Below are positions 21,327 to 34,480 of a stretch of 35,072 bases of DNA, one piece after another; the first letter of the stretch is position 1, and each line of letters begins with the position of its first letter. The notes beneath the pieces were generated by a model. The model saw nothing but the letters and a program-made list of their open reading frames with translations, did no database searches and was not told where the DNA came from. A program made the translations under genes and the position numbers. The DNA comes from Gemmatimonadota bacterium (lineage in GTDB: Bacteria; Gemmatimonadota; Gemmatimonadetes; Longimicrobiales; Gaopeijiaceae), in the NCBI GenBank assembly GCA_003248075.1, contig QJYK01000112.1:1-35072 (forward strand), written 5' to 3'.

Positions 21327-23192
21327 CTAGCACGACATGCACTTGTGGTTGTTCTTGGAGCCGAGGCTCTCCAGTAGCGCGATCGTCTCCGGGAACGGCT
21401 GGACCCGCTGCTGGGGACCGTTGGCCATGTCCGCGGTCGTCTGACCCCGCCGGCTGATCACGGTCGCATCGGCCCCGTGATCGGCGAGGTAGCGGATCAT
21501 CTCGTTGTCACCACGGGCCGCGGCGTTGTGCATGGCTGAATAGCCATCGTGATCGCGCACGTTCACGTCCACGCCCAGGTCCTCGACCAGATACCGCACC
21601 GCAGCCATCCAGCCGTCCGGCACGTGGTTGTGCTGCTGCCCCACCCGCGAGGTCCCGTACCCTACGCCCGAAGCCGCGTGAAGCGGGTGCACGGCTGGTC
21701 CGCCGGCCTCCACGGGCGGAAGGCCTGACGGATCCTCCTCCACCTCCCCGGGCTCGTCGGGATCCCCGCCTCGGCGTCGCTCCGCAGGCTTCACGGTCGG
21801 GATGTTGGGATCGGCGCCGTAGGCCACCAACAGCCTCATCGCGTCCACGTCCAGCGAATAGGCCGCTCGCCAGAACGCGGTCGCGCCCGCGTAATCGACG
21901 CCGATGCGGCCGGCGTTGTATACGGCGTACCAGATGTGTGTGTCGAGCCGCTGGTTCACGTCTGCGCCCGCCTCGAGCAGGGCCTTCATGAGCTCGAGGT
22001 GCGTCGTGCGCTGCTGCTGCCATGCGGTCGGTTGCGGATACCATGTTCGGTGTGCCCAGCGGCTGTTGACCGTCGCGAACAGCGGACCGGCACCGTCTTC
22101 GCTGAGCATGTTGGGGTCCGCACCCCGGCCGAGCAGCTCCACCGCCAGGTCGTAGTTCCCGTTGATCACGGCCACGAGCAGAGGGGTGGAATGATCTCCG
22201 CCCGTGATGGCGTTCACTTCGGCGCCGGCGTCCAGGAGCAGCTCGGCTGCCTCGATTCGGCCGTCGCGGGCCGCGTAGTGGAGCGCCGTCATGCCTCCCT
22301 GGCGCCCCACCAGATCGGAATAGCCCAGGGGCTGCGGCCGGGGCGTCGACGGCTCCGCTCCTCCCTTCGCCGACGGCCCCTCGACGGTGGTGGGCCGGTC
22401 GGGATCGGCGCTCCCCGTCGCGGGGTGCACCTCGGCAGCGGCTCTCGAGGAGTCGGGCATCGGGGAGGGCCTCTCTCCGCCGGCTCGGGTCGCTGCCGGA
22501 GTCGCCGCCTGCCGCCCCCCCCCCTGCGCCGGTGGATCCTCGCCCCTGATGGCGGCCATCACACGCTGCCGTTGACGCCGGTCTGCCGCGTCCTCCTTCG
22601 TGAGCTCGACGTAGTCCACGACCCGGGTCTGGAGGGATGGATCTGCCCCTCCATCAAGCAGCGCCCGCATGACCTCGAGTCGGCCCATGCCGGTGGCGAA
22701 CATCAGAGGGGTCCGGTCCGAGTGCGAGTCCCGCGCATCGACGGTCGCACCGTGCTCGAGCAACACCTCGACGGTCCCAACGTCACCGGACTCCGCAGCG
22801 AAGTGGAGCGGCGTCGCGCCGGTGTGGGTGAGCACCTCCGCATCGGCGCCGCCCTCGAGGAGCGTGCGTACCACCACGGCGAAGCCGCGTTGGGCAGCGA
22901 AGTGGATCGGCGCATACCCTCCCAGACGCGTGGTCGCCTGCGGATGAGCTCCGGCGTACAGGAGCATGCTGGTCATCTCGGCGTCCTGATTCAACGCGGC
23001 CCAGTGCAGGGCGGTCATCCCGTCGCCCTGCGCGGCGTTCACGTCGGCGCCCTCGCGCACGAGGGCACGCACCGCCTCCAGATCGCCTCGCTCCGCGGCA
23101 TCCGCGACCGGCGACTCTATGGGGACGGCGATCGCGCCCGTGATCAGCAGCACGCCGGCGAAGCCCAGGTTCCTGATCCGCAGTAAACGCAT
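21327..23192 (-). CDS. Exported ankyrin-repeat protein with KNNHxCxxC tail (copy 1)
   Basis: This 621-residue protein has a signal peptide (MRLLRIRNLGFAGVLLITGAIA) and then ESPVADAA leading into a first ankyrin block (about 30-190). A low-complexity Pro/Gly/Ala linker (about 200-295) precedes a second ankyrin block to about 595. Late motifs outside the ankyrin consensus are VKPAERRRGG, DPSGLPP, HAASGVGYG and GQTTADMANGPQQR. The protein ends exactly LGSKNNHKCMSC. The linker contains ten consecutive Gs on the coding strand (22515-22524). The ATG at 23192 has GGAGG five bases upstream; an earlier GTG at 23252 overlaps the preceding stop. Ankyrins mediate protein binding; the partner is probably the neighbouring diheme protein. 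Function is unknown. Confidence 0.9.
   Translation of the reverse strand: MRLLRIRNLGFAGVLLITGAIAVPIESPVADAAERGDLEAVRALVREGADVNAAQGDGMTALHWAALNQDAEMTSMLLYAGAHPQATTRLGGYAPIHFAAQRGFAVVVRTLLEGGADAEVLTHTGATPLHFAAESGDVGTVEVLLEHGATVDARDSHSDRTPLMFATGMGRLEVMRALLDGGADPSLQTRVVDYVELTKEDAADRRQRQRVMAAIRGEDPPAQGGGRQAATPAATRAGGERPSPMPDSSRAAAEVHPATGSADPDRPTTVEGPSAKGGAEPSTPRPQPLGYSDLVGRQGGMTALHYAARDGRIEAAELLLDAGAEVNAITGGDHSTPLLVAVINGNYDLAVELLGRGADPNMLSEDGAGPLFATVNSRWAHRTWYPQPTAWQQQRTTHLELMKALLEAGADVNQRLDTHIWYAVYNAGRIGVDYAGATAFWRAAYSLDVDAMRLLVAYGADPNIPTVKPAERRRGGDPDEPGEVEEDPSGLPPVEAGGPAVHPLHAASGVGYGTSRVGQQHNHVPDGWMAAVRYLVEDLGVDVNVRDHDGYSAMHNAAARGDNEMIRYLADHGADATVISRRGQTTADMANGPQQRVQPFPETIALLESLGSKNNHKCMSC
22515..22524 (-). 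repeat. Ten-G homopolymer tract inside ankyrin gene copy 1
   Basis: The coding strand reads ten Gs, encoding the end of Gln223 and Gly224-226 in the linker between two ankyrin blocks. A one-base slip would truncate or garble the second block and remove the cysteine tail. It could be a contingency locus or a site of sequencing error. Confidence 0.7.
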
Positions 23193-23248
23193 CACAGCCT
23201 CCGACGGGCCACGCGCCCGCCCTCGCTCGGGTCCGACGTTCCGCTCGG

Positions 23249-25747
23249 TCACCGCTCCGAATTCCCGCCGGCTGACGGCGCCTCATCGGGCTGGGTCGTG
23301 GCGGCCGCTCGCGCCTGCTGGAAGGCGGGGCTGTGCACGACCCCCATCACGAAGGAAGACATAGGGTAGCCGTCGGCCTGGGCGCTCCGCGTGATGCCAC
23401 GGACCGTCGGCTGATCGTAGTACTCGACCCGGCGCCCGATCGCATACGCCATGAGGTTCTCCGTGAACGTGCGCAGGAAAACCTCCGGCCTGGCGAGGAG
23501 GGCTCGTCGAAGGTCGGCCGGCCCCGCCAGCTGTGTGCCGTCGTACATCTCGCCTACCGGGTCCACCGGGTTACCGCCGTCCCTCAGCCGCCAGGCGCCC
23601 GTCACGTCGAAGTTCTCGAGGGCGAGCCCGATGGGATCGATGAAACGATGACACGAGTTGCAGGTCGGGTTGGCTCGATGCTGCTCCATCCGTTCGCGCA
23701 CGGTCAGGACGCGGCCATCCTCGTCACCCGGGGTGACCTCGAGGTCGGGGACGTTCGGCGGTGGGGGAGGAGGGGGAGAGCCCATGAGCACCTCCATAAC
23801 CCATTTGCCGCGCAGCACGGGAGACGTCCTCGTGGCATGCGAGGTCTGGGTCAGGATGCTGCCGTGCCCCAGAAGCCCGCGCCGCCGGTCATCCGGGTAC
23901 TTCACCATGCGGAACTCGGCACCGGACACGTTCGGAATGCCGTAGTGCCGCGCCAAACGCTCGTTCACGAACGTGTAGTCGGCACCGAGAAGGTCGAGAA
24001 CACTCTCGTCCGCGCGCACGAGGTGGTCGAAGAGAAGCTCGGTCTCCCGGACCATCGCCTCGGCCAGGGTCGCGTCGTAGTACGGATAGTCCAGAGCGTC
24101 CGGGTGGACCTTTTCCAGATCGCCCAGCCGCAGCCACTGGGCCGCGAAACGGGTGGACAGGGCCTGCGAGCGCGGATCCGCCAACATGCGGCGGACCTGT
24201 TGATCCAACGTCGCCGGCACCGAGAGCCTGCCGCTGCTCGCCAGATCCAGGAGCTCCTGGTCGGGTCCGGTTCCCCACAGGAAAAACGAGAGACGCGACG
24301 CCAGGTCGACGTCCGTGATCCTGTACACGGTTCCCTGAGCACCGCGGTCGGCCTCCGTACGGAAGACGAAATGCGGGCTCGCGAGAACCGCCTGCAGCGC
24401 AAGGCGCACCCCCTCCTCGAAGCCACCCTGCTCTTCCCCCAGGTCGTAGAAGGACATCAGGCCGTCCACGTCCCTGCGCTCGACCGGCCGCCTGTAGGCC
24501 TTGGCGGCGAGGCGTTCCACGATGTCCTCGGCGCACGGGCGGGCCTCCTCCGGCTTCGTGGGGCGACACGAGAAGATCAACCGCCGCGACGGAGTGTCGG
24601 AGACACCGGTGGGATCGAACGGCCCGACCACCGTGAACGACTGCAGGTGCGGAAACGTGGTGATCCCGTAGTCGAGGCCGATCTGAGTGTCGGCCAAGGT
24701 GTGGTCCTGCGGAGTGATCAGGTCGTCGACCGGTCCCTCGAACCGCTTGAGGAACGCCGCCGTGACCCGGTGGGGTCCGGCTCTCACGAAGATCGAGTCG
24801 GTCGACAGGGTCATGCCGGACGGATCCGAATCGGACATCCAACGGTCGACGTCCAGAAGGGCCACGCGCTCGCCGTCGATGGAAACCTCGATCTGCTCCC
24901 CGCGCTGTGAGCGTCCGTACAGCTCGCCCTCGGGGGCGGAATACAGCATCGGACGAAAGACATACTCGCCGTCCGCCGGAAACGCGTGGATGACCGACAC
25001 GCCACCACGCGTCCCGAACGGCGCCCCGGGGACGCGCTCCTTCTGGGATTGCGTGCGCGGAATCCGGTACGGCGTCGAGGCCGGGTCCGCCCCGGGATCC
25101 CCGACGGCGTCCCGAGACACCTGGAACGCGGCGCGCAGGTAGCCCTCCATGAGCGTCGCGGACGGAAGCTGCACGTCCGCGATGTTGTCGAAGTTCGCGC
25201 TCTTGGTATCGAGGGGGAGGAACGCGTCGACATCCACATCCAACCCCAGGAGATCCTTCACCGACGCCCGATACTCGGCGCGGTTCAGGCGTTGGAACGT
25301 CCGATGGCCCGGGTTGGGCTCCGCCGCGGCGAGCCCGTCCATCGTGCTCTCGAGGGTGAGCATGAGCGCATCGAGCGAATCGATGCTGGGACGGCGGGCC
25401 CCGGGAGGGGGCATCATCCCCGCACGGAGCTTGCGGATCATCTTCTCCGCCACCGCTCCGTTCTCCCCGGCGTTCGCGATGTCGAAGGCCTCCAGGGACA
25501 GATTCCCGGTCAGACGTCGATCGCTGTGGCAGCGAGTGCAGTAGCGGTCTACCACCGCGTCCGCGACGGCGACGTCGTCCCCCGGTTCGGACCTCCGGTC
25601 CCGTTGCCGAGCCGTCGATGCGTGGGCGGCGCCGGACAAGATGGTGCGGCGCTCTCCGAAGCTTCCGCTGTCGAAGATGGTGGCGCTCGTGACCAACATG
25701 AGCGCCAGGACCCCCAGCGGGGCCATCGGGTGGGCAGGATGGATCAT
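23249..25747 (-). CDS. DUF1592-family (PSD) diheme c-type cytochrome-like exported protein (copy 1)
   Basis: This 832-residue exported protein has a hydrophobic N-terminus (PLGVLALMLVTSATIF). The domain order is that of the planctomycete-type PSD/PSCyt proteins. A first heme motif CTRCH (70-74) and MPPPG (112-116) precede RLNRAEYRASVKDLLG (DUF1587). A carbohydrate-binding-like middle follows, then DUF1595 (SPHFVFRTE), DUF1592 (DLASRLSFFLW and RFAAQWL), DUF1588 (RRGLLGHGSIL and CNSCHRFIDPIG at 696-700) and DUF1585 (FTENLMAYAIGRRVEYYD). Two CxxCH motifs imply two c-type hemes. The ATG at 25747 is used. Its stop overlaps a GTG that begins the ankyrin frame. The substrate is unknown; a role in polymer oxidation has been suggested for relatives. 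Confidence 0.92.
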   Translation of the reverse strand: MIHPAHPMAPLGVLALMLVTSATIFDSGSFGERRTILSGAAHASTARQRDRRSEPGDDVAVADAVVDRYCTRCHSDRRLTGNLSLEAFDIANAGENGAVAEKMIRKLRAGMMPPPGARRPSIDSLDALMLTLESTMDGLAAAEPNPGHRTFQRLNRAEYRASVKDLLGLDVDVDAFLPLDTKSANFDNIADVQLPSATLMEGYLRAAFQVSRDAVGDPGADPASTPYRIPRTQSQKERVPGAPFGTRGGVSVIHAFPADGEYVFRPMLYSAPEGELYGRSQRGEQIEVSIDGERVALLDVDRWMSDSDPSGMTLSTDSIFVRAGPHRVTAAFLKRFEGPVDDLITPQDHTLADTQIGLDYGITTFPHLQSFTVVGPFDPTGVSDTPSRRLIFSCRPTKPEEARPCAEDIVERLAAKAYRRPVERRDVDGLMSFYDLGEEQGGFEEGVRLALQAVLASPHFVFRTEADRGAQGTVYRITDVDLASRLSFFLWGTGPDQELLDLASSGRLSVPATLDQQVRRMLADPRSQALSTRFAAQWLRLGDLEKVHPDALDYPYYDATLAEAMVRETELLFDHLVRADESVLDLLGADYTFVNERLARHYGIPNVSGAEFRMVKYPDDRRRGLLGHGSILTQTSHATRTSPVLRGKWVMEVLMGSPPPPPPPNVPDLEVTPGDEDGRVLTVRERMEQHRANPTCNSCHRFIDPIGLALENFDVTGAWRLRDGGNPVDPVGEMYDGTQLAGPADLRRALLARPEVFLRTFTENLMAYAIGRRVEYYDQPTVRGITRSAQADGYPMSSFVMGVVHSPAFQQARAAATTQPDEAPSAGGNSER

Positions 25748-25935
25748 GAGAACCCTCGGGTTTCTACGGCCGACGGCCGGACATGCCTGTGACGGCCGCT
25801 CAGCCCACCCATGATAGGTGGCTCGCGGGCCGATCGTCCAGCAGAAAGGACACGCCGAGCCCGGGTGGCGCTGACCCCCTACCCCCTGTAGCGTCCACAG
25901 GACGCCGGCCACATCTCACTCCCCGCGCATCTCTG
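25748..25935. other. Divergent region between DUF1592 copy 1 and the cupredoxin gene
   Basis: This 188-base region separates oppositely oriented genes. A small hairpin AACCC/GGGTT (25751-25762) lies directly before the DUF1592-family ATG. No clear -35/-10 pair was found for either gene. An ATG at 25783 would extend the cupredoxin frame through this region, but that extension would sit before the lipoprotein signal. Confidence 0.5.
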
Positions 25936-26559
25936 TTGCCATCCCTCGCCCGAAAGATCGCCCAGCTGTCCGCGGTCGTCGCGCTCGCGGGCGCCTGCCG
26001 GGCGCAAGCGCCTCCGGATCAGGAGGACCTCCCGGTCCAACTCCTCCTGGGGACCGCGCCGGCGGCGGCCCGAGGTGTGCCCACCGTCGTCCTCCTACGC
26101 CCCCAGGAAGTCACGGGAAGGAGCATGCGACGGGACACGCTGGTCATGGACCAGTTCGGCATGGCCTTCTCCCCCGGCCTGCTGGTGTTGGAGCGTGGCC
26201 AGACCGTGCGCTTCCAGAACAGCGAGGATGTGGTGCACAACGTCCAGGTCAGATGGCTGGATCGCGACTCCACGCTGTTCAACGCGGGGACCGCACAGGG
26301 GTCGCCCTTCCACTTCACGTTCGAAGAGACGGGCTCGTACGACGTTTACTGCGACATCCATCCGGGAATGACGGCCATGCTGCTCGTCCACGATGCGGCC
26401 ATGGTAGTCACCGCCGCACGCGATGGCTCATTCCGCTTGGAGGACATCCCCCCAGGCTCGTATTCGGTCGAGGTCTGGAGCGCCGACCCGCGGCTCCGCG
26501 GGCGCCGGAGCGTCGTGGTAGGAGTCGGACGCACCGAGCTCGATCTGCGCGATCGCTAG
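25936..26559 (+). CDS. Cupredoxin lipoprotein with a C-terminal carboxypeptidase-regulatory-like domain
   Basis: From the TTG at 25936 the 207-residue protein begins MPSLARKIAQLSAVVALAGAC, a lipoprotein signal with Cys21. A plastocyanin-like domain follows with all four type 1 copper ligands visible: His101 (VVHNVQV), Cys139 and His142 (YCDIHPGM) and Met145. The end (GSFRLEDIPPGSYSVEVWS) is a small beta domain like those of carboxypeptidase-regulatory or Cna-B type. It should transfer electrons at the outer face of a membrane. It lies between two diheme modules on the opposite strand and shares its stop bases CTAG with the convergent amidase gene. An ATG at 25783 is an alternative start. Confidence 0.82.
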   Translation: MPSLARKIAQLSAVVALAGACRAQAPPDQEDLPVQLLLGTAPAAARGVPTVVLLRPQEVTGRSMRRDTLVMDQFGMAFSPGLLVLERGQTVRFQNSEDVVHNVQVRWLDRDSTLFNAGTAQGSPFHFTFEETGSYDVYCDIHPGMTAMLLVHDAAMVVTAARDGSFRLEDIPPGSYSVEVWSADPRLRGRRSVVVGVGRTELDLRDR

Positions 26560-27975: not shown

Positions 27976-29724
27976 TCAGCAGCCGACGCAGTTGTGGTTG
28001 TTCTTCGAGCCCAATCGCTCGAGCAGCGCTACCGTCGCGGGGAAGGGTGGAATGCGCTGTACCGGACCGTTCGCCATGTCCGCCGTGGTCTGCCCGGTGC
28101 GCGCCACAGCGGTGACATCCACCCCCTTCGACACGAGATAGAGGATGAGCTCGTCGTCACCACGCGCGGCCGCATGGTGAATCGCGTTGTATCCGTTGTG
28201 GTCCCGGACCGTCGGATCCACCCCGAGATCCTCGACGAGGTAGCGTACGGCCGGCAGCCACGCGCCGGGTACGTGCCGATGGATGTTGCCGGCGTAGCCC
28301 TCTCCGTAGCCAACCCCAGACGCAGCGTGGATCGGCCACACGCCGGGACCTCCGATGGAGACGGGCGGGAGGCCTGAGGGGTCCGGCCGATCGTCGCCGC
28401 CGCCACCACGGCGTCTCTCCGGCGGTTTCACGGTCGGGACGTTCGGGTCGGCGCCTCGTGCCACCAGGAGCTTCATCGCCGGCACGTCCAACGCGTACGC
28501 GGCCCTCCAGAACGGTGTCGCGCCCATGCGGTCGACGCCCAGATAGTCGTCCCCGAACGTCGTGAACCAGAGCTGCTTCGACAGCCGGACATTCGGGTCC
28601 GCACCCCGGTCCAGGAGCGCCGTCATCAGCTCCAGATAGGTCGTCCGCTGCTGCGCGGCGTACGTCGGCTGGGGGTGGCGCGACTTGGGGATCCACTCGG
28701 TGTTCAGCGTTGCATAGAGCGGCGTGGCGCCGGCGTCGCTCGCCAGAGTCGGGTCCGCGCCCCGTTCGAGAAGGCGCATCGCCAGATCGAAGTGGCCGTT
28801 GACGGTGGCCATGAGCAGCGGAGTGGTGTGGTCGCCGGCGCTGGGCTGGTCCACGTCCGCGCCCCGGTCCAGGAGCGCGAGGACGGTCTCGGCGTGGCCC
28901 TCTCGCACCGCGAGAAGCAGGGGCGTCAGGCCGCCGTAACCGCCGATCAGCTCCGCCTGGGTCAGCGGTTGGGGCCCCCGGTCGCGCTGACGTTCGTTGA
29001 CCTCGGCGCGAGAGAGTCCCTCGGTCGGGGGGGGTTCGCCGGCGACCGCCCGCGTGCCGCCTGCGCCCGTCGAAGCCTGTCCCTGCGCCCGTAGGGCCGT
29101 GACGTCGAGCGCGTGCTCCCGCTCGGCTGCCCGGTCCGCCTCGTCGCGGGATGGCAGGTCGAGGACTCGCGCGGTCCGCGACGGGTCGGCGCCGCCGTCG
29201 ATGAGCGCCTCGACCACCCCGGTGCGTCCGGCCGCGGCGGCGAACATGAGCGGCGTCTGCCCCCAACGCTCTTCCAGGGCGTCCACGGCCGCACCTCGCG
29301 CCAGCAACGCGGTCACCGTGGCGATGCTGCCCGAGGCGGCCGCAAAGTGGAGCGCCGTGACGCTCCCGGTGGTGGTTCGCGCGTCGGCGGACGCGCCGGC
29401 CGCGAGAAGAAGGGTGACGACGCGGTCGAAGCCGCCTCGTGCCGCCAGGTGCAGGGGCCGGTACGCGCCCACCCGCGTCTGCCGCTCCACGTCTGCGTGC
29501 ACGTCCAGGAGGAGCCGGGCCACCGCCGTGTCTCCCCGCTCCCCCGCCCAATGGAGGCCCGTCATCCCGTCGCCCTGCGCCGCGTCGGGATCGGCGCCCG
29601 CGTCAAGGAGCGCGCGCACCGCGGCGACATCGCCGTGCATGGCGGCGTCCGCCACGGGCGACTCCACGCGAGAGGCACCGGCGGCGATGAGCGCCACCGC
29701 CAGGGCACCGAGTAAGCGGGCCAC
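27976..29724 (-). CDS. Exported ankyrin-repeat protein with KNNHxCxxC tail (copy 2)
   Basis: This 582-residue paralogue of the copy at 21327-23192 has the same layout. There is a signal peptide (ARLLGALAVALIAAGA), ESPVADAA, a first ankyrin block to about 185, a linker (about 190-255) and a second ankyrin block. Then come VKPPERRRGG, DPSGLPP, HAASGVGYG, GQTTADMANGPVQR and the exact end LGSKNNHNCVGC. The GTG at 29724 has AGGAGG six bases upstream. A GTG at 29739 overlaps the DUF1552-family stop as GTGA but has a weaker site. The linker carries eight consecutive Cs on the coding strand. It is downstream of the DUF1552-family gene and upstream of the amidase gene. Confidence 0.9.
   Translation of the reverse strand: MARLLGALAVALIAAGASRVESPVADAAMHGDVAAVRALLDAGADPDAAQGDGMTGLHWAGERGDTAVARLLLDVHADVERQTRVGAYRPLHLAARGGFDRVVTLLLAAGASADARTTTGSVTALHFAAASGSIATVTALLARGAAVDALEERWGQTPLMFAAAAGRTGVVEALIDGGADPSRTARVLDLPSRDEADRAAEREHALDVTALRAQGQASTGAGGTRAVAGEPPPTEGLSRAEVNERQRDRGPQPLTQAELIGGYGGLTPLLLAVREGHAETVLALLDRGADVDQPSAGDHTTPLLMATVNGHFDLAMRLLERGADPTLASDAGATPLYATLNTEWIPKSRHPQPTYAAQQRTTYLELMTALLDRGADPNVRLSKQLWFTTFGDDYLGVDRMGATPFWRAAYALDVPAMKLLVARGADPNVPTVKPPERRRGGGGDDRPDPSGLPPVSIGGPGVWPIHAASGVGYGEGYAGNIHRHVPGAWLPAVRYLVEDLGVDPTVRDHNGYNAIHHAAARGDDELILYLVSKGVDVTAVARTGQTTADMANGPVQRIPPFPATVALLERLGSKNNHNCVGC
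29027..29034 (-). repeat. Eight-C homopolymer tract inside ankyrin gene copy 2
   Basis: The coding strand reads eight Cs in the Pro-rich linker (EPPPTEG), at the equivalent place to the ten-G tract of copy 1. Slippage would shift the frame before the second ankyrin block. Confidence 0.5.
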
Positions 29725-29735
29725 GCCGACCCTCC

Positions 29736-31118
29736 TCACAGCGCGAGCGTCCCCGTGCTGTCTCCGAACTCGGCGACGTCGTCCATCCCGAGCCGGTGCA
29801 TCAGCGTCAGCATGGCGTTGGCCATCGGCGTGCCGTCGGGGGCCCGCACGTGCTCCCCGCCCCGCATCGCGCCATTGGCGCCGCCCAGCACGATCAGGGG
29901 GCAGCGCCGATGGTTGTGGAGGTTCCCGTCGGCCATGGGGGACCCGTACACGACCATGGTCTTGTCCAGAAGGTTCGCATCGCCCTCCTGGATTTCGCGG
30001 AGCCGGTCGAGGAAGTAGGGGAGCTGGCCGACGTGGTAGGTGTTGATCTTGGCGAAATCGAGAACCGCGTCCTTCCTGCCTCCGTGGTGCGACGACGGAT
30101 GGAACGGCGTGTCCGTTCCGCTTTCGGGATAGACCCGCGAGGAGGCGTCGCGGCCGAGCTTGAACGAGAACACCCGGGTCATGTCCGACGCGAACGCCAG
30201 CGCCTGCAGATCGAACATGAGACGCACGTGCTCGCCGAACGAGTCGGGGACCCCCGCGGGCGCGCCCGGAAGATCGCGGGGCTCGCCGCTGGTGTTGTGG
30301 GCCTCGACGCCCTGGATCCGCCGCTCCAGCTCGCGGACGTTCTCCAGGTAGCGGTCCAGCCGCTCCACATCGTTGGGGCCCAGGGTGCGCTTGAGCTTTG
30401 CAACGTCACCGGCGATCCAATCGAGGATGCTGCCGGTGCTCCGGCGCCTGACCGCTCGCTCCTCCGCGCTGCCCCCCGCCCCGAACAGCTGATCGAACGC
30501 CACGCGTGGGTCGCGGATCATCGGGAGGGGCTCGGTGGGCGACGCCCAGGAGATCGTATCCGTGTATACGCACGCATACCCGTACGCGCAGCCGCCAGCC
30601 TGGTCGACGTTCTCGATGCACAGCTGCATGGACGGAATGGGCGTCCCCTGACCGGATCGCGTCGCGTAGAGCTGGTCCAACGAGGTGCCCACGTGGACGT
30701 CCGAGCTCTCGGTCTGCCGGGGGTGCGCCTGGGTCAGGAAGACCGCGCTGGATCGGAAGTGGTCGCCGCCGATCTCCTCGGCCTTGGCCGGCTCCGCCTG
30801 ACGCACGTCGGTGTTGCTGATGATGGTGAGGTAGTCCCGGTACCGCTCCAGCGGCCGAAGCGCGCTGGGCGTGAGGTCGAAGTCGCGTCCGGTCTCGGCA
30901 GGGGCCCAGAGGTGCTGCGTGGCGCCCCACTCGTTGCTGCCAGCGGCCCCATGGACGATCTCGATCGCCACGAAGCGCGTGGGATCCGATTCCACCTTGC
31001 GCCGACCGAACAGACGTCCAGCCGGAACCATCGCGTCCAGGAAGGGGAGGGCGACCGCGGCGCCCATCCCCCGGACGAAGGTACGCCGGGGCATGCTTCG
31101 ACCGGTGATGAAATCCAT
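29736..31118 (-). CDS. DUF1552-family protein with twin-arginine signal
   Basis: This 460-residue protein begins MDFITGRSMPRRTFVRGMGAAVALPFLDAM, a Tat signal (RR at 11-12 in PRRTFVRG) usual for this family. Body features are VAIEIVHGAAG, LTIISNTDVR, GGDHFRSSAVFLT, FHPSSHHGG and VVYGSPMADGNLHNHRRCP. DUF1552 proteins are thought by architecture to be relatives of DUF1501/alkaline-phosphatase-like proteins, but no reaction is known. They are often encoded with DUF1592-family diheme proteins, as here. The ATG at 31118 has AGGAG about ten bases upstream. An upstream frame extension to 31307 lacks the signal and is not used. Its stop overlaps a GTG of the ankyrin frame. Confidence 0.92.
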   Translation of the reverse strand: MDFITGRSMPRRTFVRGMGAAVALPFLDAMVPAGRLFGRRKVESDPTRFVAIEIVHGAAGSNEWGATQHLWAPAETGRDFDLTPSALRPLERYRDYLTIISNTDVRQAEPAKAEEIGGDHFRSSAVFLTQAHPRQTESSDVHVGTSLDQLYATRSGQGTPIPSMQLCIENVDQAGGCAYGYACVYTDTISWASPTEPLPMIRDPRVAFDQLFGAGGSAEERAVRRRSTGSILDWIAGDVAKLKRTLGPNDVERLDRYLENVRELERRIQGVEAHNTSGEPRDLPGAPAGVPDSFGEHVRLMFDLQALAFASDMTRVFSFKLGRDASSRVYPESGTDTPFHPSSHHGGRKDAVLDFAKINTYHVGQLPYFLDRLREIQEGDANLLDKTMVVYGSPMADGNLHNHRRCPLIVLGGANGAMRGGEHVRAPDGTPMANAMLTLMHRLGMDDVAEFGDSTGTLAL

Positions 31119-31155
31119 GACCTTCCGCTCCTGGGCGCGCCGGGGTGCGTCCAGC

Positions 31156-32004
31156 TTATTGCGTGTCTCCGCGGTCCACCAGCGTCTTGATGGCCCTCTC
31201 CGCCCGACCGGTGAGTCCCGGGTCGCCGAGCCGTGCCGCCCAGGTCGGGAGCGCGTTCCGGGGTCCCCTCCACCGAAGCGACTCCACGTCGCTGAAGAGG
31301 GGAGCATCCGTCCGTAGCGTCGCGAGGTCCTTGAACAGCAGGGCCCGATCGCGCTGGTCGCCGAGCGTGTCGTCCGGGAAGTCCTCGATCGGCCCGTGGC
31401 GGTTCAGGAGTCGCGCCGCTCCGACACGCCCCACGCCCCGGATTCCTGGAAAGCCGTCGGCGGCGTCACCGACCAGGGCCAGAAAGTCGGGGACGAGCCC
31501 CGGATCGACCCCGAACTTCTCTCGGACCCCGGCGGCATCCCGGATGGAGCCGGAACGGCGGTCGGCCTGGACGACCCGCTCGCCACGCACGCACTGGGCC
31601 AGGTCCTTGTCGGGGGTCCAGATGACCACCTTGGCCACCCGCGCATCCCCGGCGGCGAGGGTCGCCGCCGACGCCAGGGCGTCGTCGGCCTCGAGGTCGG
31701 TCATGGGCCAGACCGTCACGCCCAGCGCCTCGAGCGCCCCCTCCAGAGGCTCGAACTGGGCGCGTAGGGCCGGCTCCATGCCCTCGCCTGTCTTGTAGCC
31801 GGCCCAGAGATCGTTGCGGAAGGACTCGACGACGTGGTCGGTCGCGACGCCCAGGTGCGTCGCGCCCTCCTCGAGCATTCGGAGCACGGTGCGTACGACA
31901 CCCAGAACGGCGCCGAGCGGTGGGTCGTCACCGTCGCGGAAGCGGCGGAGCCCGTAGAAATGACGGAACAGCTCGTAGGTGCCGTCCACCAGATGCACGA
32001 TCAT
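31156..32004 (-). CDS. Stand-alone 5'-3' exonuclease (FEN/PolI-N type)
   Basis: This 282-residue protein resembles the 5'-nuclease domain of DNA polymerase I without the polymerase. Acidic metal ligands are visible: Asp8 (VDGTY), the DLEADDA block (Asp103, Glu105, Asp107, Asp108), TPDKDLAQ (Asp132, Asp134) and LVGDAADGFPGI (Asp180, Asp183), followed by the helix-3-turn-helix GVGRVGAARLL. It would act in the cytoplasm on flap or nicked DNA. The ATG at 32004 lies 10 bases after the DUF1592-family stop, and the DUF1552-family gene follows after 37 bases. Its presence inside an envelope-protein operon is odd. The weak ribosome binding site leaves expression level open. Confidence 0.92.
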   Translation of the reverse strand: MIVHLVDGTYELFRHFYGLRRFRDGDDPPLGAVLGVVRTVLRMLEEGATHLGVATDHVVESFRNDLWAGYKTGEGMEPALRAQFEPLEGALEALGVTVWPMTDLEADDALASAATLAAGDARVAKVVIWTPDKDLAQCVRGERVVQADRRSGSIRDAAGVREKFGVDPGLVPDFLALVGDAADGFPGIRGVGRVGAARLLNRHGPIEDFPDDTLGDQRDRALLFKDLATLRTDAPLFSDVESLRWRGPRNALPTWAARLGDPGLTGRAERAIKTLVDRGDTQ

Positions 32005-32014
32005 CCGGGGACGG

Positions 32015-34480
32015 CTACCCCTCCCGATCGCTGACGGGGGCGACGGTCCGGGGGAGGGTGGCTCGCTGCTTCTGGAAAGCGCCGCTGCCGATGACGCCCA
32101 GGATGAAAGCCGACATCCGGTAGCCCTGCGTCGCAGCGTCGCGCACGATGGCGCGCACGGTCGGCTGGTCGAAATACTCGACCCTGCGGCCCAGCGCATA
32201 CGTCATCAGGTTCTCGGTGAACGAGCGCAGCAACGGCTCCGGACGCGCAAGCAGGGCAGCCCGCAGGTCGGCCGGGGACCCGATCGGCGTTCCATCGTAC
32301 AGCTCGCCGCGTGTATCCAACGGGGCGCCATTCTCGCGGATACGCCACTTTCCGGTACCGTCGAAGTTGTCGAGCGCGAGCCCGATGGGGTCCATGAAGC
32401 GGTGGCAGGAATTACAGGTCGGATTGGCCCTGTGCGCCTCCATACGCTCACGAGTTGTCAGGACGCGCCCCTCGACCGACTCGGCGGTCTCCTCCAGGTC
32501 GGGCACGCCCGGTGGAGGCGGTGGTGGTGGCGTGCCCAACAGGACCTCCATCACCCACTTTCCACGCAGCACCGGCGACGTCCGGCCGGGGTGCGACGTG
32601 AGCGTGAGGACGCTGCCGTGGCCCAGAAGCCCCCGACGGGAGTCGTCGGGATAGGTCACCCGCTGGAACGCGTCTCCCGCGACCCCCTCGATCCCATAAT
32701 GCTCGGCGAGCGTCTGGTTCACGAACGTGAAGTTCGCCGTATAGAGCTCCAGAGCGCTCCGGTCGTCACGGACGAGGCTGTTGAAGAACAGCTCCGTCTC
32801 GGAGCGCATCGCGCTGGCGAGCTGGAGATGGTAGTCGGGCTGCAGCCGTACGTCCGGATGGATCTTGTCCAGGTCCTGCAAGCGGAGCCACTGGCCCGCG
32901 AAACGCGCGCCCAGCGCTTCCGCCTTCGGGTCCCTCAACATCCGGCGCGCCTGTCGCTCAAGCTCATCGCCTCCGCTGAGCGCGCCCTCTTCGGCCACAC
33001 GGGAGAGCTCTTCGTCCGGAGGCCCTCCCCACAGGAAGTACGAGAGCCGCGAAGCCAGATCGACGCCGGACACCGGGTAGACCTCCCCGGGCCGGACCAT
33101 CGCCGGCGGCTCCTCGAAGCGGAATACGAAGTGAGGGCTCGACAGGATCGCCTCGAGGGCGGATCGCACTCCCTGCTCGAAGCCGCCCTCGGCCGCGCCG
33201 ACCTCCCAGAAGCCCATCAGGGCCGCGGTCTCGTCGCCCTGCACGGGCCTCCGGAAGGCCTCGCGCGCGAGGGTCGCGACGATGCGCTCGGCGCAGCGTC
33301 GCTCCTCGGAGGGGGCCGTGGGAACGCAGGACAGCACCCTCCGTCGGCTGGGCGAGTCGGACACCCCCCGGGCGTTCCACGGCCCGGCGATCACCAGATC
33401 TCGAAGGTGCGGAAGGGACATCACGCCATAGGTGCCGGCGATCGCCGTGCTCGCCAGCGACCAGTCGTGCGGAGATACGAGATCCTGGACGGGACCCTCC
33501 GCAGCTCGTAGGAACGCCGCGCTCACCCGTCGCTGACCCGAGCGCACCAAGATCGGAGGGGTGCGCAGCTCGACCCCGTTCGGGTCGGAGACGTGCATCC
33601 AGCGGTCGATGTCCAGGAGCGCGACACGTTCGCCGTCGATCGAGATCTCGAGCTGCTCCGGCACCTCGGCGGAGTTCAGTGCCGAGCGACCGTTGCCCAC
33701 CATCGCGCCCGTCGTCTCGTGGTGGAACGAGACGCGGAAGACGTACTCTCCGTCGGCCACGAAGGTGTGCAGGACCGACGTGCCGCCCCTCGTGCCGAAC
33801 GGGGCGCCCTCCGCGCGCTCCATCTGCGAGGCCCAGCGCGGCACCGAGTACTGCTTTTCCGCCGGTGCCGCCCCGGTGTATCCGAGGGCGAGACGGCTGA
33901 TCTCGGCGGCCGCGGTCAGGTAGGCGTCGAGGAGCGTGGGCGAGAGGAGCTGTGCATCCGCGATGTTGTCGAAGTTCGCGCTCTTGGTGTCCAGCGGGAG
34001 ATAGTCACCGGCGTCGACCTCGAGATCCAGGAGGTCCCGGATCGAGCGCTCGTACTCGGCGCGGTTCAGACGCTGGAAGGGCCGGCCTCCCGGATCGGGG
34101 TGCTCTGCCGCGAAGCGGTCGAGCCGGGCTTCCAGCGCGACGGCGAGGGCCGTGAGTGAGTCGCCACCGGGCCGATCCGTCCCCGGCGGGGGCATCATTC
34201 CCGCCCTCAGCTTGCGGATCATGCGCTCGGCGATCTCGGCGGATTCCGGGGTCGCCTCGGGTCGCTGGGCGTCGAAACGTTCCAGCGACAGGTTCCCTCG
34301 CAGCCTCCGGTCGTTGTGGCACCGGACGCAGTACTCCTGGACGACTGCGTTGGGATCGTCGGCCACGGCCGCGCCGCGGACCACCGGCGCCGTGGCCCCT
34401 GGCGGAGGGTTCGCGGCGCCCGGGGCCTGCATGGCCAGGGCGACGCCGGCCGCACAAAGGGCGGCGGGAAGGTGCTTCAT
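32015..34480 (-). CDS. DUF1592-family (PSD) diheme c-type cytochrome-like exported protein (copy 2)
   Basis: This 821-residue paralogue of the protein at 23249-25747 has a signal peptide (MKHLPAALCAAGVALAMQAPGAA). The same domains follow in order: CVRCH (51-55), GMMPPPG, RLNRAEYERSIRDLL, TKSANFDNIAD, SPHFVFRFE, DLASRLSYFLW, RRGLLGHGSVL, CNSCHRFMDPIG (689-693) and FTENLMTYALGRRVEYFD. A region of about 20 extra residues (HHETTGAMVGNGRSALNSAEV) sits in the middle domain relative to copy 1. Two CxxCH motifs imply two hemes. The ATG at 34480 gives the signal peptide directly; no clear Shine-Dalgarno was seen. It heads the module of exonuclease, DUF1552-family, ankyrin and amidase genes. Confidence 0.92.
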   Translation of the reverse strand: MKHLPAALCAAGVALAMQAPGAANPPPGATAPVVRGAAVADDPNAVVQEYCVRCHNDRRLRGNLSLERFDAQRPEATPESAEIAERMIRKLRAGMMPPPGTDRPGGDSLTALAVALEARLDRFAAEHPDPGGRPFQRLNRAEYERSIRDLLDLEVDAGDYLPLDTKSANFDNIADAQLLSPTLLDAYLTAAAEISRLALGYTGAAPAEKQYSVPRWASQMERAEGAPFGTRGGTSVLHTFVADGEYVFRVSFHHETTGAMVGNGRSALNSAEVPEQLEISIDGERVALLDIDRWMHVSDPNGVELRTPPILVRSGQRRVSAAFLRAAEGPVQDLVSPHDWSLASTAIAGTYGVMSLPHLRDLVIAGPWNARGVSDSPSRRRVLSCVPTAPSEERRCAERIVATLAREAFRRPVQGDETAALMGFWEVGAAEGGFEQGVRSALEAILSSPHFVFRFEEPPAMVRPGEVYPVSGVDLASRLSYFLWGGPPDEELSRVAEEGALSGGDELERQARRMLRDPKAEALGARFAGQWLRLQDLDKIHPDVRLQPDYHLQLASAMRSETELFFNSLVRDDRSALELYTANFTFVNQTLAEHYGIEGVAGDAFQRVTYPDDSRRGLLGHGSVLTLTSHPGRTSPVLRGKWVMEVLLGTPPPPPPPGVPDLEETAESVEGRVLTTRERMEAHRANPTCNSCHRFMDPIGLALDNFDGTGKWRIRENGAPLDTRGELYDGTPIGSPADLRAALLARPEPLLRSFTENLMTYALGRRVEYFDQPTVRAIVRDAATQGYRMSAFILGVIGSGAFQKQRATLPRTVAPVSDREG

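Follow-up and report, generated by a model that had tools for sequence, protein, structure and literature searches.

Two exported ankyrin-repeat proteins encoded in the window share a C-terminal tail

The window, i.e. the whole stretch of 35,072 nucleotides that was analyzed, encodes two exported ankyrin-repeat proteins, here referred to as ANK1 and ANK2, in two gene sets together with DUF1592 and DUF1552 proteins. The relevant features are:

21327-23252, minus strand: ANK1, exported ankyrin-repeat protein; 641 amino acids as listed; two Cys in all, both in the tail
21330-21365 (stop codon 21327-21329), minus strand: ANK1 C-terminal tail, LGSKNNHKCMSC
23249-25912, minus strand: DUF1592a, PSD3-PSD5-PSD4-PSCyt3-PSD2, with two CXXCH (heme c) motifs; directly upstream of ANK1
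27976-29739, minus strand: ANK2, exported ankyrin-repeat protein; 587 amino acids; hydrophobic N-terminus; two Cys in all, both in the tail
27979-28014 (stop codon 27976-27978), minus strand: ANK2 C-terminal tail, LGSKNNHNCVGC
29736-31307, minus strand: DUF1552 (HXXSHH) protein with a Tat-like SMPRRTFVRG sequence
32015-34480, minus strand: DUF1592b, PSCyt1-PSD3-PSD5-PSD4-PSCyt3-PSD2, two CXXCH motifs; lies upstream in the DUF1552-ANK2 set

The start of ANK1 overlaps the stop of DUF1592a by four bases, and the start of ANK2 overlaps the stop of DUF1552 to the same extent. ANK1 and ANK2 are 55% identical across the full alignment and 67% identical across the last 125 residues, and both finish in LGSKNNHxCxxC with nine of the 12 tail positions identical between the copies.

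Two further genes lie close by. A 5'-3' exonuclease gene (Pfam 5_3_exonuc; 31156-32199, minus strand) interrupts the usual operon order between DUF1592b and DUF1552, and as listed its reading frame overlaps both neighbors; the true starts of the exonuclease gene and of DUF1552 (the latter near 31118) are probably downstream of the listed ones. A divergent gene (25783-26559, plus strand) that adjoins both gene sets encodes a plastocyanin/azurin-like copper-binding domain and a carboxypeptidase-regulatory-like C-terminus.

The tail is conserved far beyond chance

A contig scan with N-terminal peptide patterns identified 79 loci, chiefly in Gemmatimonadota and Acidobacteriota together with some records labelled Gammaproteobacteria. 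The family loci are mostly MAG contigs, and the approximately 110 tailed relatives come from MAGs of Gemmatimonadota, Acidobacteriota and Pseudomonadota. Because the 99 full ankyrin homologues were collected by means of N-terminal peptide patterns, the tail was not selected for; nevertheless, 98 of them end in CxxC followed by zero to four residues, and the remaining one belongs to a variant class (class B, see below). No Cys is present elsewhere in the mature region of 77 of the 99.

Among the approximately 110 relatives the tail has the consensus [LMY]G[AS]xNN[HND]xCx[SGA]C followed by zero to four residues. In the alignment of the CxxC-type tails (class A), the Gly and each of the two Cys are present in all 109 rows, placing the Cys in the 99th conservation percentile, and the two Asn are present in 107 and 98 rows, respectively, while the third CxxC position is Ser in 90. 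The His position is less constrained (His in 74 rows, i.e. approximately 68%, Asn in 25 and Asp in seven), the Lys position is free, and Ala is commoner than Ser at the [AS] position. The first-pass annotation had described an exact LGSKNNHxCxxC tail directly at the stop codon. This description holds for both window copies and is too strict for the family: Lys varies, Ala outnumbers Ser, approximately one third of the members have Asn or Asp instead of His, and one to four residues follow the last Cys in 20 of the 98 CxxC-ending homologues. The codons at conserved tail residues vary synonymously and include both Ser codon families (TCN and AGY), which indicates that the tail is kept at the protein level. 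In total, the conservation of the tail is far beyond chance.

The two cysteines are present as a pair or not at all

In class B (11 loci), approximately nine extra residues lie between the two Cys (C-x11-C) and the C-terminus is longer; the NN, His and Ser have been lost and both Cys are retained. In a tree from which the tail residues of class A had been left out, class B branches inside class A, its sister being of the A type (97/94). We conclude from this nesting that the Cys spacing changed after the pair had arisen and that the pair outlived the change in spacing and context. Within the last 60 residues, two Cys are found in 108 class-A tails and three in two, two are found in class B (n = 11), and none in a distant class of ankyrin proteins (n = 10); a single tail Cys was not found among the counted members of the three classes.

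The distant ankyrin paralogues, mostly 28-31% identical (up to 40% over short stretches), are also encoded in DUF1592-DUF1552 operons. Their C-terminal Cys are mostly absent, and one has a CxxC with a long extension after it. Given that these proteins occur in the same type of operon, the tail is in principle not needed by the module. It had been proposed initially that the idea would be refuted if homologues of this ankyrin architecture commonly lacked the cysteines or had unrelated C-terminal extensions. The answer is divided: the close homologues examined keep both Cys without exception, the extension of class B differs and still contains two Cys, and the paralogues that mostly lack the Cys are distant ones in the same operon context.

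The tail is confined to one family that is linked to DUF1592 and DUF1552

Searched with a core-motif DNA pattern, 59 related genomes gave 79 matches, 76 of which are at the ends of family ankyrin genes; of the other three, two look like chance and one lies at a contig edge. The source genome encodes three tailed ankyrins, three DUF1552 proteins and three DUF1592 proteins. In other relatives, including G012, G025 and G006, many tailed ankyrin genes are present per genome, often in tandem gene sets, and G012 has nine matches to the core-motif pattern. In a plasmid search all matches were below 60% identity and, among the matches listed, were ankyrin proteins wherever a domain is named. No named NCBIfam family attains its cut-off for ANK; for T4SS_Ank, the family of Dot/Icm ankyrin effectors, the best ANK score is 112.9 bits compared to a cut-off of 600. 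Judged from these sequences, the tail marks a widespread and uncharacterized bacterial family.

Among the 47 tailed ankyrin genes with enough flanking sequence, 44 are accompanied by DUF1592 and DUF1552, in the order DUF1592, DUF1552, ANK, and the remaining three by DUF1592 only; partner assignment here rests on gene order. The linkage is also phyletic: among the 59 genomes, a strong ankyrin match (E <= 1e-28) and DUF1552 occur together in 23 of the 24 ankyrin-bearing genomes and neither occurs in the other 35, and the sole genome with the ankyrin and without DUF1552 is 82% complete.

Conserved Cys in the DUF1592 proteins comprise the two CXXCH motifs and an additional pair, irrespective of the class of the ankyrin tail, and a conserved free Cys was not found in the DUF1592 proteins compared. 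DUF1552 proteins encoded beside class A or class B ankyrins often have two extra Cys at reference positions 230 (85% beside class A) and 469 (77%). These Cys are absent beside Cys-less ankyrins; they are not universal, and their occurrences are not strongly coupled.

When searched by sequence against the PDB, neither DUF1592b nor DUF1552 gave a match, and Foldseek with a model of DUF1592b found no solved structure at E <= 0.001. Weak similarity of the model to BcsB domains and CBM35-like (CBM35/36/6) beta sandwiches (E of approximately 0.004-0.03) presumably comes from a strand-rich insert at residues ~205-372 and hints that the two-heme DUF1592b could bind carbohydrate.

The tail is predicted to be a flexible arm outside the ankyrin fold

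ANK matches only Ank families in Pfam (Ank, Ank_2 and Ank_4), with repeats above the cut-off, and is modelled by AlphaFold as a confident helix-pair solenoid (mean pLDDT 91.5). The final helix spans residues 567-575, and the last seven residues, NHNCVGC, form one block with a pLDDT of 65 compared to 97 for the preceding block. The tail is therefore predicted to be flexible and to lie outside the ankyrin fold, and this predicted flexibility combined with the strong conservation is in line with a functional arm rather than with a segment packed into the fold. A hydrophobic N-terminus is present in 96 of the 110 class-A proteins and a lipobox is absent. The original proposal, that these exported proteins have a functional tail outside the ankyrin fold and that ankyrin structure does not explain its degree of conservation, is thus borne out.

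The CXXCH heme attachment motif of c-type cytochromes is absent from ANK1 and ANK2; the order of the tail, HxCxxC, is the reverse of this motif and the His is not conserved. Similarly, neither a thioredoxin fold nor a Pfam domain surrounds the tail CxxC, unlike in a thioredoxin-like oxidoreductase. The source genome encodes VKOR, a disulfide-forming enzyme, and the thiol-handling protein CcmH.

Discussion

A Cys pair that is present or absent as a unit on a flexible, conserved arm, and that survived an insertion between its members, is best accounted for if selection maintains a sulfur-sulfur link. Given that the proteins are exported and that the genome encodes VKOR, an intramolecular disulfide is the expected state of the pair. 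The lack of a conserved free Cys in DUF1592 likewise favors a bond within ANK and argues against an obligate cross-link to DUF1592. As far as sequences can tell, a disulfide, whether structural or redox-active, remains the best reading of the tail. Moreover, the confinement of the tail to one family and its linkage to DUF1592 suggest that it works inside the module, most likely in docking.

Combining these data, we suggest that the arm, i.e. the flexible C-terminus bearing the sole two Cys of an exported ankyrin subunit, works as follows: (i) after export, the two tail Cys would pair with each other, (ii) the disulfide would close the arm into a locked knob where the ankyrin solenoid ends, and (iii) the knob would dock onto a partner of the same module, for which the DUF1592 protein is the best candidate because it is encoded beside every tailed ankyrin with enough flank. 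We consider this model of an intramolecular disulfide on a docking arm as likely to be right as wrong. Against it, the low-confidence AlphaFold tail yields no docking site, and the distant paralogues do without Cys in the same type of operon. Also, CxxC disulfides are often redox-active and not structural.

The latter point leads to the main rival to docking, in which the tail dithiol/disulfide relays electrons between a thiol enzyme of the periplasm and a partner, i.e. the DUF1592 heme protein or an apocytochrome Cys during heme attachment. The C-terminal Cys pair of ribonucleotide reductase serves that enzyme's own active site in this way. This model gains from the flexibility of the tail, from the position of the CxSC pair near a C-terminus that tolerates zero to four extra residues, from the two CXXCH motifs of the partner, from the presence of CcmH and VKOR in the genome and from the precedent of ribonucleotide reductase, in which a flexible C-terminal tail bears a Cys pair (PMC5704485). 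However, class B keeps the Cys and loses the CxxC spacing, ANK has neither a thioredoxin fold nor another redox domain, and the DUF1592 Cys are the same beside distant ankyrins, in this type of operon, that lack the tail Cys. We therefore regard electron shuttling as unlikely, while giving it more weight than any other alternative. A broader possibility, which we hold more tentatively still, is that ANK could serve specifically as a redox or assembly subunit within an exported two-heme enzyme system not described so far, in which the arm would pass electrons or disulfides to DUF1592 or escort its apo-form through heme attachment. If so, this would provide the first function for the DUF1592 and DUF1552 families; planctomycete-type PSCyt/PSD genes and adjoining families occur often in several phyla, and no function is known for them (PMC5615132).

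Alternatively, the tail Cys could join two ANK molecules or ANK to DUF1552. The occurrence of Cys 230 and 469 in DUF1552 beside class A and B ankyrins, and their absence beside Cys-less ones, is in line with such a cross-link. Nevertheless, we find an intermolecular disulfide improbable: these Cys are neither universal nor mutually linked, the tail is kept in ANK1 and in the three ankyrins that, as judged from their flanks, have no adjoining DUF1552, and a bond to a free Cys in DUF1592 is rejected because no such Cys is conserved there.

Slightly less probable again is a metal or heme site, as considered in the first-pass annotation, in which Zn, Fe, Cu or heme would be bound by His, Asn or Asp and the two Cys, either of one tail or of two tails in a dimer as in a zinc hook. 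HxCxxC is found in both window copies and in approximately two thirds of the family, but the replacement of His in the remaining third leaves no invariant His/Cys ligand set, and class B has lost the spacing and the NNH context along with it, so that HxCxxC as a fixed set of metal ligands is rejected; for heme, ANK moreover lacks CXXCH. We also dropped the idea that the tail mimics the DUF1592 heme motif (NPxCxSCH compared to NHxCxSC, a likeness seen by eye) because the shared N and S are gone from class B. Finally, recognition of the tail by a general sorting or processing enzyme, suggested initially by its C-terminal position on exported proteins, is highly improbable given that the motif search of the 59 genomes confines it to essentially one family, that residues beyond the last Cys are tolerated, and that the TM helix and basic tail are absent, with only zero to four residues following the motif, unlike in tags of the PEP-CTERM or MYXO-CTERM type.

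Whichever role it has, the tail is a testable handle: it marks the ankyrin subunit associated with DUF1592 and DUF1552, occurs several times per genome, and exists in three natural variants that can be compared (CxxC, C-x11-C and none).

Gene sets of the kind found in the window have been noted before as a planctomycete-specific cytochrome c gene with an adjoining family of unknown function (DUF1592/DUF1552, PSCyt3-type) in Verrucomicrobia and Planctomycetes (PMC5615132). The sets described here differ in having an ankyrin gene as a third member after these two; "ankyrin" is not mentioned in the main text of that paper, and the open papers searched, a scope that leaves out most subscription journals, contain no account of an ankyrin-DUF1552/DUF1592 link or of the tail. 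As in ribonucleotide reductase, ANK has two Cys on a flexible C-terminal tail; it differs in having no catalytic domain of its own, and the likeness would be an analogy of mechanism only. Ankyrin proteins of the Cj1386 and AnkB type support catalase and thus represent ankyrin partners encoded beside a heme protein. The heme protein is a different one in that case and the parallel may serve as a lead only. With ankyrin-repeat proteins in general, ANK shares the repeat sequence and the predicted solenoid, the best PDB match being ankyrin-B R13-24 (5y4f; TM 0.82 by target length), whereas it differs from ordinary members in being exported and in having conserved insert loops with Trp/His and the two-Cys tail.
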